From assembly GCA_031272365.1 (NCBI GenBank), contig JAISTX010000059.1, forward strand, positions 1 through 64,000: a stretch of DNA of 64,000 bases. The letters are read 5' to 3'. The translations under genes were made by a program, and so were the position numbers. Below, in pieces: positions 1,511 through 49,854 of this stretch (positions within the stretch are counted from its first letter, which is position 1; every line of letters begins with the position of its first letter). The notes under the pieces are model-generated. The model had not been told where the DNA came from and ran no database searches. It was given only the letters and a program-made list of their open reading frames with translations. The DNA is from Eubacteriales Family XIII. Incertae Sedis bacterium (lineage in GTDB: Bacteria; Bacillota; Clostridia; Peptostreptococcales; Anaerovoracaceae).

Positions 1511-1529
1511 GCGGTCTTCTCCTTCTGGC

Positions 1530-1552
1530 GGGCGAACGCAGTTCGCCCCTAC
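1530..1552 (-). repeat. GTAGGGGCG-type palindromic repeat, single copy
   Basis: On the minus strand this reads gtaggggcgaactgcgttcg plus ccc, with stem GGGCGAAC/GTTCGCCC. It has the same GTAGGGGCG start and general build as the seven copies inside cheA (48406-48657). Its TAG serves as the stop codon of the restriction-modification gene, so the element sits precisely at that gene's 3' end. Confidence 0.75.
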
Positions 1553-4374
1553 TTCCCTTTTTCAACGAGTGCTTGATAACGTGTCATCAGGTCGGCTACG
1601 CAGTCGGCTTCGGACTGCCATTTGCCCCAGCCGCCGTAGAGCTTCATCACGGCCTTGTCCAGCGCTTGGTGGGCCCTGGTCAGCTCCGGCGGCATCGTGA
1701 GCGGGTCATAGAGGTCGGCGAGCGAGCTGTTTGGGAATAATAACCTTGCGTCGAGCACCCCCTGCGCGAGTGCGGCGATCTCCGCCTGCTGCGCCTCGTT
1801 CGCCTCCGGCCATGGGAAGTTGTTGTAAACGATATCTTTTGAATAACGATAATCGCTTTTCAGCCGCCCGGCCACCGCTCGCATCCACGCATTATGGACG
1901 TTGGATGTCAGGATGCCGAAGTGGTAGAGGGTCGCGCCGGGGATGAGAAACACGAGGTCGCTTGCAAACGTTTCAGGCGTGAGCATCCCGATGGGGATGT
2001 ACTTGCGCCGTTCGGAAGAGACTTTCGGAATGACAATATAGTTTTCCTTCGGCATGTTCTCCACATGGAAGCGCGTCGGCGTCTCGGCGAGCTTCCTCGT
2101 CGGGGCGCTCTTGCTCGCGAGGCGGAAGGCGCGCACCGCCTCCACGCGCCTCATCGCTTCCGGCATCGTGCGGAGCTCGTTGGGCGGGCAGTCGCCGAGC
2201 CACAGGCAGAAGCGTGTGTAGCCGTTGATGAACTCGTCCGACCCGATCCATGGGCGGAACCACTTCTCTGCCCGGGGCTCCGTTTTGAGGAAGGCGTCCT
2301 TCCCCTCGCGTGTGAACAGATAGTTCCCGCCGTCTATCGGTTTGTTGCCGATGCCGATGGGGGGCATGCCGCACAGCGGCTTCGCACGGCTCCCCACAAA
2401 GATGTTCGGCGCGAAAATCAGGTAGCCGTTGATGTTGGCAGGGAGCTCTTTGGATTCTCGGGACAAGCCCGAGAATGACGAGGTGGTGTTATCGTTGCCG
2501 AAAATCACACGCGGTGCGTCGTTTGCGGCGACCGAAAAGCCTACGATCACACAGTGCACCGCAGCCATGCCTTTGGCCTCGCTTTCCCATTTGAACGTGC
2601 GGTAGCCAAAGTCGATGTGGCACGCATATCCTGTGAGCAGAGCACCCCACAAGGTGGAAACGGATTCCCCTTGGCAAATGGAGTTTGTGGAGACGAAGGC
2701 GGCTCTGCAGTCCGTGCCCTGCATGAGCTGTGCCGCTTTGTAGTACCAGCCGCACACATAGTCCAGCGTCCCGACGCCTTTGATGGGTTTGCCATCCACG
2801 CCGAAGCAGACGCTTTCGATCTCGCGGCGCTGCTCATCCGTCTGGTATTTCGACCCCAGGAACGGCGGGTTCCCCATGATGAAGTCGTAGGGGCGGCCGC
2901 CCTCGGCTGCCCGCAACGCCCCCCAATCCATCCGCAGCGCGTTGCCGCAGACGATGTGGTGGTAGTCCACCAGCGGCAGGTTCACGATCCGCCGGCTGAG
3001 GATGCCGCTCGTCTCGATGTTGCTCTGGTGGTCGGCGATCCACAGCGCGGCGTTGGCGACGTTTACGGCGAAGTCATTGATCTCGATGCCGAAAAACTGC
3101 CCGACGTTCACCTTGACGCGCAGGTCCTCGAGCTCGAGCGAGAGCTGCCCGCCGGACACGAGCCGCCGCAGGATCTCGTTCTCTACGCCGCGCAGCTCGA
3201 TGTATGTCTGAGTCAGGAAATTGCCGCTGCCGCACGCCGGGTCCAAGAACGAAAGGGACGCGATCTCGTCCTGCAGCGCACGGAGCCTGGCCTTGTCCTC
3301 CCCGGCCTCGCGCAGCTTCGCTACGATGCCGTCGAGGAACAGCGGGTCGATGACTTTGCGGATGTTTTGCACGCTCGTGTAATGCATACCGCCCGCCCGC
3401 CGCTGCTCGCCGGACAGAATGGATTCAAAGATCGAGCCGAAGATGACGGGGGAGATGCCCGCCCAGTCAAACCGGTGGCTGCTGTCGTCGAGGATCTCGC
3501 GCTTGATCTCGTCCGTGAAGATCGGTATCTCGATCTCGCCCGCGAACAGGCCGCCGTTGACATACGGAAACTGCGCGAGCGTCGCGCCGAGGTAGGGGTC
3601 GCGCTGCTCCTTCGGCGTGTCCAGCACCTTGAACAGCGTCAACAGGGCTTCCCGGAAGCGGCCTTCGCCGGCGGGGACGTCCTTCAAATAGTTATAGAAC
3701 AGATTCTTCTCAAACAGGCCCGCGTCTTCAGCGTAGAGGCAGAAGAGGATGCGCACCATGAGGGCGGCCAGGTCGGCGCCGCTCCGGTCGGGGTCGACGT
3801 ACTGCTCCCGCACGAGCGCGTAGATGCGGCCGATGATGCCTGCGGCCTCCTTGCTGATTTTGACCTGGCGCTCGATGATGGCGTTGATCGGGTCAGTGAT
3901 GAAGTCGAACACCGACAGCTGGTCGGGCAGCTCCTCGAGGCGCACCGACACGGGGCTTAGGCCGCCCGGGTCGTTCCGGCGGTCGTAGATGAGGAAGGAT
4001 TCAAAATTCGATGTGATGATGAAGTCGGGGTATTCGGCCGGCGGCAGATACGAGGCGTAGCGCACGGCCTGCTCGTAAGGCGTGAGGTTTTCGTCGTCGC
4101 TTTGCCTGCCGGGTTTCGTCAGGTCGATGCCGAGGCTCTTCTGCTCGATCAGCACCTTGCTCGATGCGATGTAGGCGTCTATCCACTTCGTGGAGCGCCC
4201 GGCCTTGACGGGCTTCTGGTACTCGATCTCATGGAAGACGCGTTCGACGCCGAGCACCTCCATCAGGAACGAATTCCAAAACGTCTGGTCGTCGGCCTTC
4301 TCGCGGCCTTTGCCTTTCCAGTCCTCCGCAAATTTCCGCGCGTTCAGCAGCCGTTGTTCTGTGTCCAGCATCAT
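1549..4374 (-). CDS. Type IIL (MmeI-like) restriction-modification enzyme, single polypeptide
   Basis: 941 residues, close to MmeI (about 920). Domain order: N-terminal PD-(D/E)XK-type nuclease with WIDAY near residue 65 followed by IEQKS (D-x10-E-x-K); helical linker; gamma-class N6-adenine methyltransferase with motif I FLDPACGSGNFL near 375 and motif IV MGNPPF near 500; then a target-recognition domain and helical C-terminus. Such enzymes cut and methylate with one shared recognition domain and protect the host by single-strand methylation. The recognition sequence cannot be read by eye. The start overlaps the rqcH stop by 4 nt (ATGA), so the two are probably translationally coupled. A palindromic repeat (2452-2479) is inserted in frame near residues 632-641. 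Catalytic motifs look intact. Confidence 0.88.
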   Translation of the reverse strand: MMLDTEQRLLNARKFAEDWKGKGREKADDQTFWNSFLMEVLGVERVFHEIEYQKPVKAGRSTKWIDAYIASSKVLIEQKSLGIDLTKPGRQSDDENLTPYEQAVRYASYLPPAEYPDFIITSNFESFLIYDRRNDPGGLSPVSVRLEELPDQLSVFDFITDPINAIIERQVKISKEAAGIIGRIYALVREQYVDPDRSGADLAALMVRILFCLYAEDAGLFEKNLFYNYLKDVPAGEGRFREALLTLFKVLDTPKEQRDPYLGATLAQFPYVNGGLFAGEIEIPIFTDEIKREILDDSSHRFDWAGISPVIFGSIFESILSGEQRRAGGMHYTSVQNIRKVIDPLFLDGIVAKLREAGEDKARLRALQDEIASLSFLDPACGSGNFLTQTYIELRGVENEILRRLVSGGQLSLELEDLRVKVNVGQFFGIEINDFAVNVANAALWIADHQSNIETSGILSRRIVNLPLVDYHHIVCGNALRMDWGALRAAEGGRPYDFIMGNPPFLGSKYQTDEQRREIESVCFGVDGKPIKGVGTLDYVCGWYYKAAQLMQGTDCRAAFVSTNSICQGESVSTLWGALLTGYACHIDFGYRTFKWESEAKGMAAVHCVIVGFSVAANDAPRVIFGNDNTTSSFSGLSRESKELPANINGYLIFAPNIFVGSRAKPLCGMPPIGIGNKPIDGGNYLFTREGKDAFLKTEPRAEKWFRPWIGSDEFINGYTRFCLWLGDCPPNELRTMPEAMRRVEAVRAFRLASKSAPTRKLAETPTRFHVENMPKENYIVIPKVSSERRKYIPIGMLTPETFASDLVFLIPGATLYHFGILTSNVHNAWMRAVAGRLKSDYRYSKDIVYNNFPWPEANEAQQAEIAALAQGVLDARLLFPNSSLADLYDPLTMPPELTRAHQALDKAVMKLYGGWGKWQSEADCVADLMTRYQALVEKGK
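2452..2479. repeat. Palindromic repeat inside the type IIL RM gene
   Basis: ggattctcgggacaagcccg plus agaatgac shares the ggattc...gggn...cccg...gaatgac layout with the two intergenic copies at 724-750 and 794-820. It stays in frame and encodes part of SSFSGLSRESKELP on the minus strand, between methyltransferase core and recognition domain. Confidence 0.75.
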
Positions 4375-21348: not shown

Positions 21349-22706
21349 TGGGCGCGCCTGCTTCTTTTTTGTATAACGATAACAACCCGGCCGACATGGC
21401 GGCGCTTGCGGAGAAGATCACGGAGACGCTCGGGCGCGGAACGTTGCCCGCGGAGGCCGTCGTGGCCGCCTGCGACCGGCTCTCGCGGCGGATCGCCCCC
21501 GAGGAGCACCTGCCCGCGCTCCTGGCGCTCGGCCTGACGGAGCAGCGCGCGCGGGACGAGATCGAAATCGCGCAGACCCTGCTCTCGCGCGGATGGCTCG
21601 AGGCCCGGCTGCGCACGGAATTCCCGGACGGCATCGCGGAAGAAACGGCCTTCGTCCCGTTCGCGTCCGCGGACGGGAGGCAAGTGCGCCAGCGCTGGGC
21701 GCCGCTCGGCGTCCTGCTGCACATCGCCGCCGGCAACGCCGACGCACTCCCCGTGTTCAGCGTCATCGAGGGGCTGCTTACGGGCAACGTCAACCTGCTC
21801 AAATTCCCCGGCGGCGGCGACGCGCTCTCGGAGGCGATCCTGTCTGCGCTGATCGCCGAGGAACCTTTGCTTGCGGATCAGATCTATGTTTTCGCGACGC
21901 CGTCGGACGACATCGCCGGGATGAAACGGCTCGCCAGGCTCGCGGACGGGATCGTCGTGTGGGGCGGCGACGAAGCCGTGCGCGCGGTGCGCGCGCTGTC
22001 CGACCCCGACACCCGGATCATCGAGTGGGGGCACAAGATCAGCTTCGCCTACGTCTCGGAGCGGGGCGGCGCTGCATCGGACGAAGCCCTGCGCGGCGTC
22101 GCGCGGAACATCTGCGAGACGCAGCAGCTCTACTGCAACTCCTGCCAGGGCATTTTCCTCGACACCGAGGACGACGGGGAGGCCGCCGCCTTCGCGGAGC
22201 GCTTCCTCGCGATCCTGGAGGCAGAGGCGTCACGCCTGCCGGCGCCGGCGGATCCCTTTGTCCAGGCGCAGAAGACGCTCGAGCTCCGCACGGCGGAGCT
22301 CGAGGCGCTCGCCGGCGCGGCGCGCGTCTTCCGGGGCGCGGGCGTCAGCGTCACCCTTTACGGGGGAGGGGAGGGCGCGCGGCTGCTCCCCGCGATCGGC
22401 TACCGCAACACCTGGGTGCGCCCGCTCCCGCGCGGACGCCTCCTTGGGGCGCTCCGCCCCTACAAAGGCCACCTCCAGACGGCAGCCTTGCTCTGCGCGG
22501 ACGCGGGCGCGGGCGCGGGGGGCGGCACGGGCGCGGGCAGCCCCCCGGAACCCGGCGACCGGGAGACGCTCGAGCGCCTGCTCTTCGCGGCCGGCGTGGT
22601 GCGCATCACCGACGGCGCGTCTATGTCCCGCGCCTACTGCGGCGAGCCCCACGACGGCGCCTTCCCCCTCCGCCTCTACGCCAGGCGGCTCTCGGTGCTG
22701 GGCTGA
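21348..22706 (+). CDS. LuxC-family acyl-CoA/acyl-enzyme reductase
   Basis: 452 residues. ATG 21348 (AAGGAGG upstream) is used rather than the ORF-track start. Family blocks: APLGVLLHIAAGNADALPVFSVIEGLLTGNVNLLKFPGGGD (NADPH-binding, aldehyde-dehydrogenase-like), IIEWGHKISFAYV, and ETQQLYCNSCQGIFLD, in which the first Cys of YCNSC is the likely acyl-accepting residue. It reduces the acyl group supplied by LuxE to an aldehyde with NADPH. A Gly/Ala-rich insertion (DAGAGAGGGTGAGSPPEPGD) near residue 390 is low-complexity and is probably a surface loop. Confidence 0.87.
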   Translation: MGAPASFLYNDNNPADMAALAEKITETLGRGTLPAEAVVAACDRLSRRIAPEEHLPALLALGLTEQRARDEIEIAQTLLSRGWLEARLRTEFPDGIAEETAFVPFASADGRQVRQRWAPLGVLLHIAAGNADALPVFSVIEGLLTGNVNLLKFPGGGDALSEAILSALIAEEPLLADQIYVFATPSDDIAGMKRLARLADGIVVWGGDEAVRAVRALSDPDTRIIEWGHKISFAYVSERGGAASDEALRGVARNICETQQLYCNSCQGIFLDTEDDGEAAAFAERFLAILEAEASRLPAPADPFVQAQKTLELRTAELEALAGAARVFRGAGVSVTLYGGGEGARLLPAIGYRNTWVRPLPRGRLLGALRPYKGHLQTAALLCADAGAGAGGGTGAGSPPEPGDRETLERLLFAAGVVRITDGASMSRAYCGEPHDGAFPLRLYARRLSVLG

Positions 22707-47220: not shown

Positions 47221-49854
47221 ATGTCTGATGAGTACAACAACGATTCGCTCTTAGAACTATATCTATACGAATCCACTTCCCTGCTTGAGTCGCTGGACGG
47301 CGTTTTGCTTGACGCGGAAAAGGGGAGCGATCTTTCCAAGGACAACATCAACGAGATTTTCCGCATCATGCATACGATCAAGGGCAGCAGCGCGATGATG
47401 GCCTTCAACGGCATCGCGGACGTCGCGCACACGGCGGAGGATCTGTTCTCCATCATCCGGGAAAGCGGGCTGCCGGATGGGTATATGGACGATCTGGTCG
47501 ACATCGCGCTCGCGGTGTCGGATTTCCTCAAGGCCGAGGTGGACAAGGTGCAGCAGGGCGCGGAGCTCGAGACGGGCGTCGAGCCTTTGACGCAGAAGGT
47601 CGCGGCGCTGGCGGGCAAGATCCGCGAGGAGGTGGGCGAGCCGGAGGTCGTGGACCTCGGGCGGATCCTCGGCGGCATCGACGCGCCGCCGCGCGAGCCG
47701 GTGCGGCAGCCGGAACCGGCGTACACGAAGGTGCCCGAGCCCGTGATCATCGACGTCGCGCCGGAGGACCTGATGCCGGTCGCGCCCGAGGGGGGCCGCA
47801 TCCTGGGGCTGGAGCCGGACGGGAGGCAGGGCGCGCGCCCTGCGGCGCCTGCCGAACCTGCCGGGGAGCCGGCTGCGGGCGAAGAGGCCGGGCCTGCCGG
47901 GGAGCCGGCTGCGCCCGAAGAGGCCGCGCCACCCGCGCCGCCTGAGTCGCCTGCCGCGCCCGAAGGGGCCCGGACGCCCGGGGACGGCGCGCGGGACCTG
48001 CCGCAGGCGGACCTTTCCCGCGTCACGGAGAGCGTGCGCAACGCGGCGGGCAGCGGGCTCGCGGAGCCGGGCACGTATTTCCTGCACGTGCATTTCAACG
48101 AGGGCTCGAAGATGGAGAACATCCGCGCCTTCATGCTGGTGAACAAATTGGCCGAGAAGGGCACGGTGGGGCGCACGATCCCCGCGAACGTGGAATCCGA
48201 CCCCGACGCGGCGGCCGTGATCGCGGAGAACGGGTTCTACCTCAGCTACACGACGACGCTGTTCCGCGAGCAGATCGAGAAGCTTGCGAAGGGCACGCTG
48301 TCCGTGGAGTCGGTGTCCTTCGTGCGCAGGCTGCCGGAGGACCCGAACGCGCGGCAGGAAGCGGCCGCGGAGCCGCCGAAGCCAGCGCCCCGCCCAGCCC
48401 CGCGCGTAGGGGCGGATGGCAATCCGCCGGTCCCCGTAGGGGCGGATGGCAATCCGCCCGCCCACGTAGGGGCGGATGGCAACCCGCCGGTCCCCGTAGG
48501 GGCGGATGGCAATCCGCCCGCCCACGTAGGGGCGGATGGCAATCCGCCCGCCCAAGCCCCCGCGCCCCCGCCCGCCCCCGTAGGGGCGGATGGCAATCCG
48601 CCCGCAACAGCCCCGGCGCCCCCCGCCCCCCCCGTAGGGGGGGATGGCAATCCGCCCGCCCCCACCGTGGTACAGCACCCCGCGCCGGCGCAGAGCATCA
48701 TCAGCGTCGATTTGAAAAAACTCGATGCGCTGCTCGACCTCGTCGGCGAGATCGTGATCAACGAATCCATCGTGACGGAAAACCCCGACATCAAAGGGAT
48801 GGAGCTGCCAAATTTCCTGAAGGCCTCCCGCCGGCTCGACAAGCTGACGAGCGAGCTGCAGGACACGGTCATGGCCATCCGGATGCTGCCCGTGAGCATC
48901 GTCTTCCAGAGGATGCGGCGCATCGTGCGCGACATGGGCCGGGACCTGGGCAAAGAGGCCGAGCTCGTGCTCATCGGGGAGGCGACGGAGGTGGACAAGA
49001 CCATCCTGGACGCGATCGCCGACCCGCTCATGCACCTCGTGCGCAACGCGATGGACCATGCGATCGGCACGGCGGCGGAACGGGTGGCGGCGGGCAAATC
49101 CCCCACCGGCCACATCATACTCTCGGCGCAGAACAGCGGGGGCGACGTGATCATCTCCGTCACGGACGACGGCAGGGGGCTTGACAAAGGGGCGATCCTG
49201 GCGAAGGCGCGCGAACGCGGCTTGCTGCGCAAGCCGGAAGAGACGTATTCGGACCGGGAGGCCTACGGGCTGCTCATGACGCCGGGGTTCTCCCTGAAGG
49301 ACAGGGTGACGGAATACTCGGGGCGCGGCGTCGGCCTGGATGTGGTGAAGACGGGCATCGAGCGCATCGGGGGGGCGGTCATCGTCGAGAGCAAGCCGGG
49401 GCAGGGCACGCATATCATGCTCAAGATCCCGCTCACGCTCGCGATCATCGAATGCATGGAGGTGCGCGTCGGGGAGAGCGTGTTCTCGATCCCGATCACG
49501 GGCATCCGGGAGTCGTTCAAGGCGGACGCGGGCGAGCTGATCCGGGACCCCTCGGGGGGCGAGATGATCATGCTGCGCGGCGAGCTCTACCCGATCCTGC
49601 GCCTCGCGGAGCTGTACGGCGAGCCCGGCGCCAAGGAGGACATCCACAGCGGCATGCTCGTCCTCGTCGACGCGGGCGACAAGCCCATCTGCCTGTTCGT
49701 CGACGAGCTCGTGGGGAAATTCCAGGTGGTCGTGAAGCCGCTCCCGAAATACCTCGCGCGCTTCCGCAAGGGGCGGACGGGCATCTCCGGGTGCACGATC
49801 ATGGGGAACGGCTGCATCAGCCTGATCCTCAACGTGCAGGAATTGGCGGGCTGA
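47221..49854 (+). CDS. cheA: Chemotaxis histidine kinase CheA with repeat-expanded linker
   Basis: 877 residues. HPt (P1) domain with FRIMHTIKGSSAMM, phospho-acceptor His51; a Pro/Ala-rich linker (about 155-260); a P2-like ferredoxin-fold segment (TYFLHVHFNEGSKMENIRAFM); a second linker (about 380-495) built from seven VGADGNPP motifs; dimerisation domain with VDLKKLDALLDLVGEIVINES; HATPase with LVRNAMDHAIG and GRGVGLDVVK; CheW-like domain ending NGCISLILNVQELAG. It phosphorylates CheY/CheB in chemotaxis or a related output. cheR follows after 4 nt; cheW, cheY, cheB, mcp and flagellar genes are not in the window. Confidence 0.94.
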   Translation: MSDEYNNDSLLELYLYESTSLLESLDGVLLDAEKGSDLSKDNINEIFRIMHTIKGSSAMMAFNGIADVAHTAEDLFSIIRESGLPDGYMDDLVDIALAVSDFLKAEVDKVQQGAELETGVEPLTQKVAALAGKIREEVGEPEVVDLGRILGGIDAPPREPVRQPEPAYTKVPEPVIIDVAPEDLMPVAPEGGRILGLEPDGRQGARPAAPAEPAGEPAAGEEAGPAGEPAAPEEAAPPAPPESPAAPEGARTPGDGARDLPQADLSRVTESVRNAAGSGLAEPGTYFLHVHFNEGSKMENIRAFMLVNKLAEKGTVGRTIPANVESDPDAAAVIAENGFYLSYTTTLFREQIEKLAKGTLSVESVSFVRRLPEDPNARQEAAAEPPKPAPRPAPRVGADGNPPVPVGADGNPPAHVGADGNPPVPVGADGNPPAHVGADGNPPAQAPAPPPAPVGADGNPPATAPAPPAPPVGGDGNPPAPTVVQHPAPAQSIISVDLKKLDALLDLVGEIVINESIVTENPDIKGMELPNFLKASRRLDKLTSELQDTVMAIRMLPVSIVFQRMRRIVRDMGRDLGKEAELVLIGEATEVDKTILDAIADPLMHLVRNAMDHAIGTAAERVAAGKSPTGHIILSAQNSGGDVIISVTDDGRGLDKGAILAKARERGLLRKPEETYSDREAYGLLMTPGFSLKDRVTEYSGRGVGLDVVKTGIERIGGAVIVESKPGQGTHIMLKIPLTLAIIECMEVRVGESVFSIPITGIRESFKADAGELIRDPSGGEMIMLRGELYPILRLAELYGEPGAKEDIHSGMLVLVDAGDKPICLFVDELVGKFQVVVKPLPKYLARFRKGRTGISGCTIMGNGCISLILNVQELAG
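48406..48657. repeat. Seven copies of a GTAGGGGCGGAT palindromic repeat inside cheA
   Basis: The unit gtaggggcggatggcaatcc plus gccc (stem GGGCGGAT/ATCCGCCC) starts at 48406, 48436, 48466, 48496 and 48526, an exact 30-bp period, and again at 48580 and 48634. Each encodes VGADGNPP in the same frame. One copy has aaccc for aatcc and the last has ggg for gcg. A relative lies at 1530-1552 outside any coding core. Confidence 0.95.

Follow-up and report, generated by a model that had tools for sequence, protein, structure and literature searches.

Repetitive extragenic palindromes (REPs) of the GTAG superfamily have been surveyed in Proteobacteria, Cyanobacteria, Chloroflexi and the PVC group, where they are mostly intergenic and head-to-tail pairs are rare (Di Nocera et al. 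2013, PMC3733652). The same survey described intragenic clusters of GTAG REPs coding for 43 to 82 amino acids in Thauera and R. conorii, and its text makes no mention of cheA. Rickettsia palindromic elements (RPE) lie in frame within genes for functional proteins, housekeeping genes included (PMC3733652). In-frame REPs within a transposase gene are the mark of TnpA-REP subclass 2.4, or group 4 of the REP-associated tyrosine transposases (RAYTs) (Corneloup et al. 2018, PMC6006769), and paired or clustered REPs are found as REPIN/BIME (Bertels and Rainey 2011, PMC3116915; Nunvar et al. 2010, PMC2817692). GTAG REPs inside genes, clusters of such REPs, and RAYT genes with internal REPs have thus all been described before.

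Here we analyse an in-frame palindromic array in cheA, located in a 64,000-nucleotide stretch of DNA (the window) from a Clostridiales Family XIII genome. The elements resemble the GTAG REPs of PMC3733652 in having a GTAG foot, a short GC-rich stem and a tiny loop, in being dispersed, in supplying a stop codon through their GTAG, and in having in-frame genic copies. They differ in their host, in the dominance of head-to-tail pairs and, in a sister species of the same genus (G001), in that most of the sampled copies lie within genes rather than between them. Like RPE they occur in frame in protein genes, including housekeeping genes, but RPE-1 is longer and has no described link to a RAYT, whereas for the cheA unit, a GTAG REP of 24 bp, there is a candidate RAYT. 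Clustering is shared with REPIN/BIME, and inverted pairs occur in G001, but the cheA array is coding and exclusively head-to-tail. We propose, with a probability of roughly 0.82, that a REP was inserted in frame into the cheA linker, presumably by RAYT activity, that it was then tandemly duplicated to seven copies and tolerated, and that this process is general in the genus. The heavy load of REPs in coding sequence, and the occupation of one kinase linker by different REP families in two sister species, are the less ordinary, indeed unusual, features of this system.

The repeat array in cheA

The open reading frame that carries the array encodes a full set of CheA domains as defined by Pfam (Hpt, residues 10-86; P2, 286-366; H-kinase_dim, 492-553; HATPase_c, 601-739; CheW, 745-875). 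The array lies in frame at approximately residues 396-479, between the Pfam limits of P2 and the dimerisation domain, which is where an earlier note on this DNA had placed it (Table 1). The linker is GC-rich with plentiful low-complexity Pro/Ala codons. Its length ranges from 31 to 164 amino acids among relatives and is 121 amino acids in this CheA by the same measure; the 164-aa linker, in relative G022, contains no REPs.

Table 1. Positions of cheA, its repeat-bearing linker and the REP copies discussed in the text (window coordinates).
Feature	Position	Strand	Basis
cheA, 877 aa, P1/Hpt + P2 + dimerisation + HATPase + CheW	47221..49854	+	ORF, Pfam domains
CheA P2-to-dimerisation linker (residues 367-491), array-bearing	48319..48693	+	Pfam domain limits
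REP copy 1 (VGADGNPP), starts 30-bp unit type A, ends GCCG	48406..48429	+	
REP copy 2, exact 24-mer, unit type B	48436..48459	+	
REP copy 3, type A with one stem change, starts duplicated 60-bp AB block	48466..48489	+	
REP copy 4, exact, type B, same as copy 2	48496..48519	+	
REP copy 5, exact, 54-bp spacings begin here	48526..48549	+	
REP copy 6, exact	48580..48603	+	
REP copy 7, stem C to G (VGGDGNPP)	48634..48657	+	
REP, GAAC/GTTC subfamily (as in RAYT1); TAG stop of the MmeI-type gene comes from its GTAG	1529..1552	-	
REP, third subfamily (GGCCGCC stem), in frame, opposite strand in the MmeI-type gene	2887..2912	+	

Seven copies of GTAGGGGCGGATGGCAATCC(GCCC), five of them at an exact 30-bp period, were recovered at 48406-48657, in agreement with the earlier description, and dinucleotide shuffles gave an expectation of 0 copies of the 20-mer. 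Over this 20-mer, five of the seven copies are exact and two carry one mismatch each (T to C in the copy at 48466 and C to G in the copy at 48634), in both cases within the stem. The VGADGNPP unit that had been reported for the whole array holds for six copies but not for the last.

The first five copies start every 30 bp, and spacings of 54 bp separate the last three. Tandem Repeats Finder identified an additional 60-bp unit (97% match), and the array can be described as an AB block (units 1-2), a second and nearly identical 60-bp AB block (units 3-4), a unit B' and two 54-bp units. Units 1 and 3 differ at one position and units 2 and 4 do not differ. Judged by the units, this shape looks like tandem duplication following insertion, with the caveat that the genome is an incomplete metagenome assembly in which repeat copy number may be erroneous. 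In the stretches sampled from this genome, head-to-tail REP neighbours outnumber inverted ones by 22 to 2 (cheA accounts for several of the 22), whereas stretches from G001 have 12 of each, which indicates that tandem growth is a habit of the REPs of this genome.

Identity and dispersal of the palindrome

The 24-nt cheA unit consists of a GTAG foot, an 8-bp stem (GGGCGGAT/ATCCGCCC) and a 4-nt GGCA loop, and its single-strand fold is well beyond that of shuffled sequences (z = -4.2). The GTAG foot is present in all seven copies and is unpaired in the fold. An unpaired GTAG end, a short-loop stem-loop of 20-40 bp and dispersed genomic copies are the features of the GTAG REP superfamily, and on these sequence features the cheA tract is an array of GTAG-type REP elements. 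Folding of the mRNA of the whole array was ordinary for its composition (z = -1.3), and we therefore claim no translational effect.

We identified 51 copies of the cheA 24-mer with at most one mismatch in the genome, on both strands, and no match to a reversed control pattern. The exact 24-mer occurs at tens of sites outside cheA, mostly intergenic and in both orientations; REPs of the cheA type elsewhere in the genome are found between genes, at the 3' ends of genes or within them. The 24-mer pattern was absent from 60 relatives, G001 had no copy of it, and a search of the class's other 390 members did not find the exact 24-mer. A scan of a viral collection returned two contigs with the exact 24-mer among several other GTAG palindromes (L190, L191) and nothing bearing on cheA. 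Several intergenic REPs (contigs C42 and C55; L018, L020, L030) adjoin another palindrome, ATTCCGGGTCAAGCCCGGAATGACA, which is seemingly dispersed in this genome as well.

This distribution bears on whether the VGADGNPP repeat could have arisen de novo, by slippage in a GC-rich Pro/Ala linker and unlinked to the dispersed palindromes. The abundance of low-complexity Pro/Ala codons and the existence of relatives with long REP-free linkers, such as that of G022, would suit such an origin. The unit, however, is a perfect hairpin with a REP foot, and its exact sequence recurs at the many other sites described above and within a RAYT gene. We consider a de novo origin extremely improbable; the dispersed exact copies refute it, unless cheA was the source of all of them.

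RAYT transposases

The genome contains two RAYT genes. RAYT1 (contig C12, 30909-31412) matched NCBIfam REP_Tyr_transpos (E = 9e-18), Pfam Y1_Tnp slightly above the cut-off, and the solved TnpA-REP 4er8. RAYT2 is located on contig C7 between polA and coaE; it was undetected by the Pfam Y1_Tnp search of the genome and was located through its REP-bearing frame, with backing from NCBIfam REP_Tyr_transpos (E = 8e-17). Both NCBIfam matches are under the cut-off of 80 bits. The motifs are NHVH, WQ and YMENNP (M for I) in RAYT1 and NHIH, WQ and YIENNP in RAYT2, and in each gene the HUH motif is preceded by one forward REP and followed by one or two inverted REPs, all in the gene's own frame. The REPs inside RAYT1 belong to a GAAC/GTTC subfamily, the same as at window position 1529-1552. 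Those inside RAYT2 are exactly of the cheA subfamily, both forward and inverted, with an extra inverted copy at the 3' end of the gene. An associated RAYT gene that contains or adjoins the same REP is a further feature of the GTAG REP superfamily.

These motifs and in-frame internal REPs fit TnpA-REP subclass 2.4 / RAYT group 4. The motifs NH[IFV]H, WQ and Y[IM]xNNP are common to both genes and to that subclass, as are canonical long REPs with a GGG/CCC stem base (PMC6006769). Because the cheA subfamily sits inside its own frame, RAYT2, or a close relative of it, is the likely spreader of that subfamily. No RAYT was found in the draft genome of G001 (84% complete).

RAYT2 and coaE form one open frame, joined by REP-encoded residues (L120, 1322-5326), an arrangement that differs from what is described in PMC6006769, where cheA and this genus are also not treated. 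The neighbouring polA contains a REP-like insert, DGQPKAAAPT.

REPs inside other genes

Genes were called on stretches surrounding REP hits using a self-trained dicodon gene caller with Pfam checks, and REPs were scanned by palindrome. Codon-usage frame scoring was rejected in favour of the dicodon caller, as it did not discriminate in so GC-rich a genome, where antisense frames rich in arginine received good scores. In the stretches from this genome, 16 of 68 GTAGGGG-type REPs lie inside called genes (6 in cheA) and 7 more overlap gene ends, while in those from G001 the figure is 45 of 71, in 25 genes; these intragenic fractions are indicative only, as the stretches were picked for holding main-family REPs. 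The caller misses the AT-richer RAYT genes, so that RAYT-internal REPs are tallied as intergenic in these counts. The called coding fraction is approximately 0.9 in both sets of stretches.

Many of the REP-bearing genes are backed by Pfam. In G001 they include class I tRNA synthetases (one with a LeuRS editing domain), a class II synthetase with an editing domain (ProRS-type), RecJ, a MiaB-type radical-SAM protein, IspDF, an M24 peptidase, DNA polymerase III delta', a class-V aminotransferase, and MFS, ABC/CbiQ, SNF2 and UbiA proteins. In the genome under study they include PolA, an RlmN-type protein, GH38, an MmeI-type restriction-modification protein and an amidohydrolase. The REP of the MiaB-type protein lies in a loop whose length varies across relatives and is short in this genome.

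On contig C45 (L129, 1734-1986), a 774-aa exported-looking ORF has three inverted REPs of the cheA subfamily in an N-terminal Ser/Glu-rich linker, where they encode AGGLPSAPT. As read from its sequence, this is another colonised linker in the same genome, besides that of CheA. In-frame REPs of two subfamilies occur in a surface-protein-like ORF of approximately 4000 aa on contig C56 (L133, 417-12440).

The cheA linker of a sister species

The cheA protein fragment of G001 is identical to that in the record 'Clostridiales Family XIII bacterium isolate Md513_bin127'. A general REP pattern had 35 matches in the G001 genome, nearly all of them GTAGGGGCGGGGCTTGCCCCGCCC. The G001 cheA linker also contains in-frame REPs: GTAGGGGCGGGGCTTGCCCCGCCC (encoding VGAGLAPP), an inverted GTAGGGGACGGGCTTGCCCGTCCC (AGRASPSPT) and a forward GTAGGGGCGGCTTTCAGCCGCCC (VGAAFSRP). 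These belong to G001's own genomic families, distinct from those of the genome under study. No REP was found in the outgroup cheA linkers that were checked.

Rather than reflecting independent insertions, the two linkers could descend from a single REP insertion in the cheA of the genus ancestor, rewritten later in each species by gene conversion or by repeated insertion from the current REP family. In both species the REPs occupy the C-terminal part of the linker, adjoining the conserved QSIISVDLKKLD, and their forward copies share a frame that reads VGA. That frame would be favoured regardless of descent, since a TAG stop closes one of the three forward frames. Moreover, orientation differs (forward and inverted in G001, forward only here), the spacers are unrelated between the two species, and permissive loops of other genes have been hit likewise. 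We regard a shared ancestral insertion as unlikely, though well within the range of reasonable explanations.

Two G001 contigs (C126 and C226; L117, L118) break off inside the cheA array. Their last units differ while the sequence that comes next is the same, which may represent length alleles or an assembly break. Differing ends of this kind, together with the tendency of near-identical tandem units to change in length, would be expected of a contingency locus in which copy number is selected to vary and so tunes or switches CheA signalling, and phase-like variation had been suggested for the array before. The spacings of 30, 54 and 60 bp do not bear this out. All are multiples of three, so the gain or loss of a unit lengthens or shortens the linker by 10 or 20 residues (or 18, for a 54-bp unit) with the frame kept and cannot switch cheA off; these unit lengths exclude on/off phase variation through the gain or loss of units. 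Among relatives, linkers already span 31 to 164 amino acids, the same elements are present in unrelated housekeeping enzymes where switching is implausible, and a head-to-tail order is the usual one for REPs throughout this genome. Selection for variable copy number therefore seems quite improbable to us; linker length may have a milder effect on kinase coupling. The period of such tracts needs to be checked before they are called phase-variation loci.

Proposed origin of the array

We favour insertion of a dispersed REP followed by tandem duplication. One copy of the GGATGGCAATCC REP would have entered the flexible, weakly constrained linker between P2 and the dimerisation domain in frame. 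The insertion was presumably driven by a RAYT acting through a single-stranded hairpin, the RAYT being the one with the same REP subfamily in its own frame. Tandem duplication, by slippage or unequal recombination, would then have raised the number of copies to seven. Selection would tolerate the tract, as unit lengths are multiples of three and the VGADGNPP peptide would merely extend a flexible linker. We infer the RAYT-driven insertion, the slippage and the near-neutrality for CheA. The earlier note had likewise proposed a mobile palindrome that colonised a coding linker and then expanded in tandem, and the approximately 50 genomic copies, the RAYT with the same subfamily and the duplicated 60-bp block agree with it. 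The pattern that it gave as contrary, identical copy number in relatives and no intergenic copies, is not what we observed: relatives differ and intergenic copies are abundant.

Under this proposal, a mobile palindrome lengthened a central signalling kinase's linker by approximately 84 residues with the frame intact, and the sister species did likewise at the same place with different elements. Across the genus, lineage-specific REP families would enter many coding loops in frame. A broader reading, to which we give slightly less than an even chance, is that RAYT-linked REPs supply in-frame protein insertions genus-wide, a large share of the REPs being genic (apparently the majority in G001), and that linkers like that of CheA are recurrent landing sites for each species' own family. 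If so, the turnover of protein loops would be coupled to that of the mobile-element population. Conserved enzymes of the genus (tRNA synthetases, RecJ, PolA, MiaB-type and RlmN-type proteins) provide a natural series of in-frame insertions, which could be used to test how protein sequence arises through REP/RAYT systems and at which sites an insertion is tolerated.

Other REP subfamilies in the window

The element at the end of the restriction-modification gene, which Pfam identifies as MmeI-type, had been described as the same kind as those in cheA. It is indeed a REP with a GTAGGGGCG foot, but its stem is different (GAAC/GTTC) and places it in a second subfamily. The peptide encoded by the third-subfamily REP within this gene immediately precedes the NPPF catalytic motif of the protein (RAAEGGRPY DFIMGNPPF). 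A palindrome match at 22455 has a stem of just 6 bp and was not counted. The remaining GTAG palindromes in the window could not be told apart from chance, with 14 GTAG palindromes in total (6 in cheA) against 5 to 18 for control tags, although most of these tags are commoner words. At the edge of the window, positions 1-642 contain a coding tandem repeat with a 126-bp unit (5 copies, 86% match) that is TPR-like.
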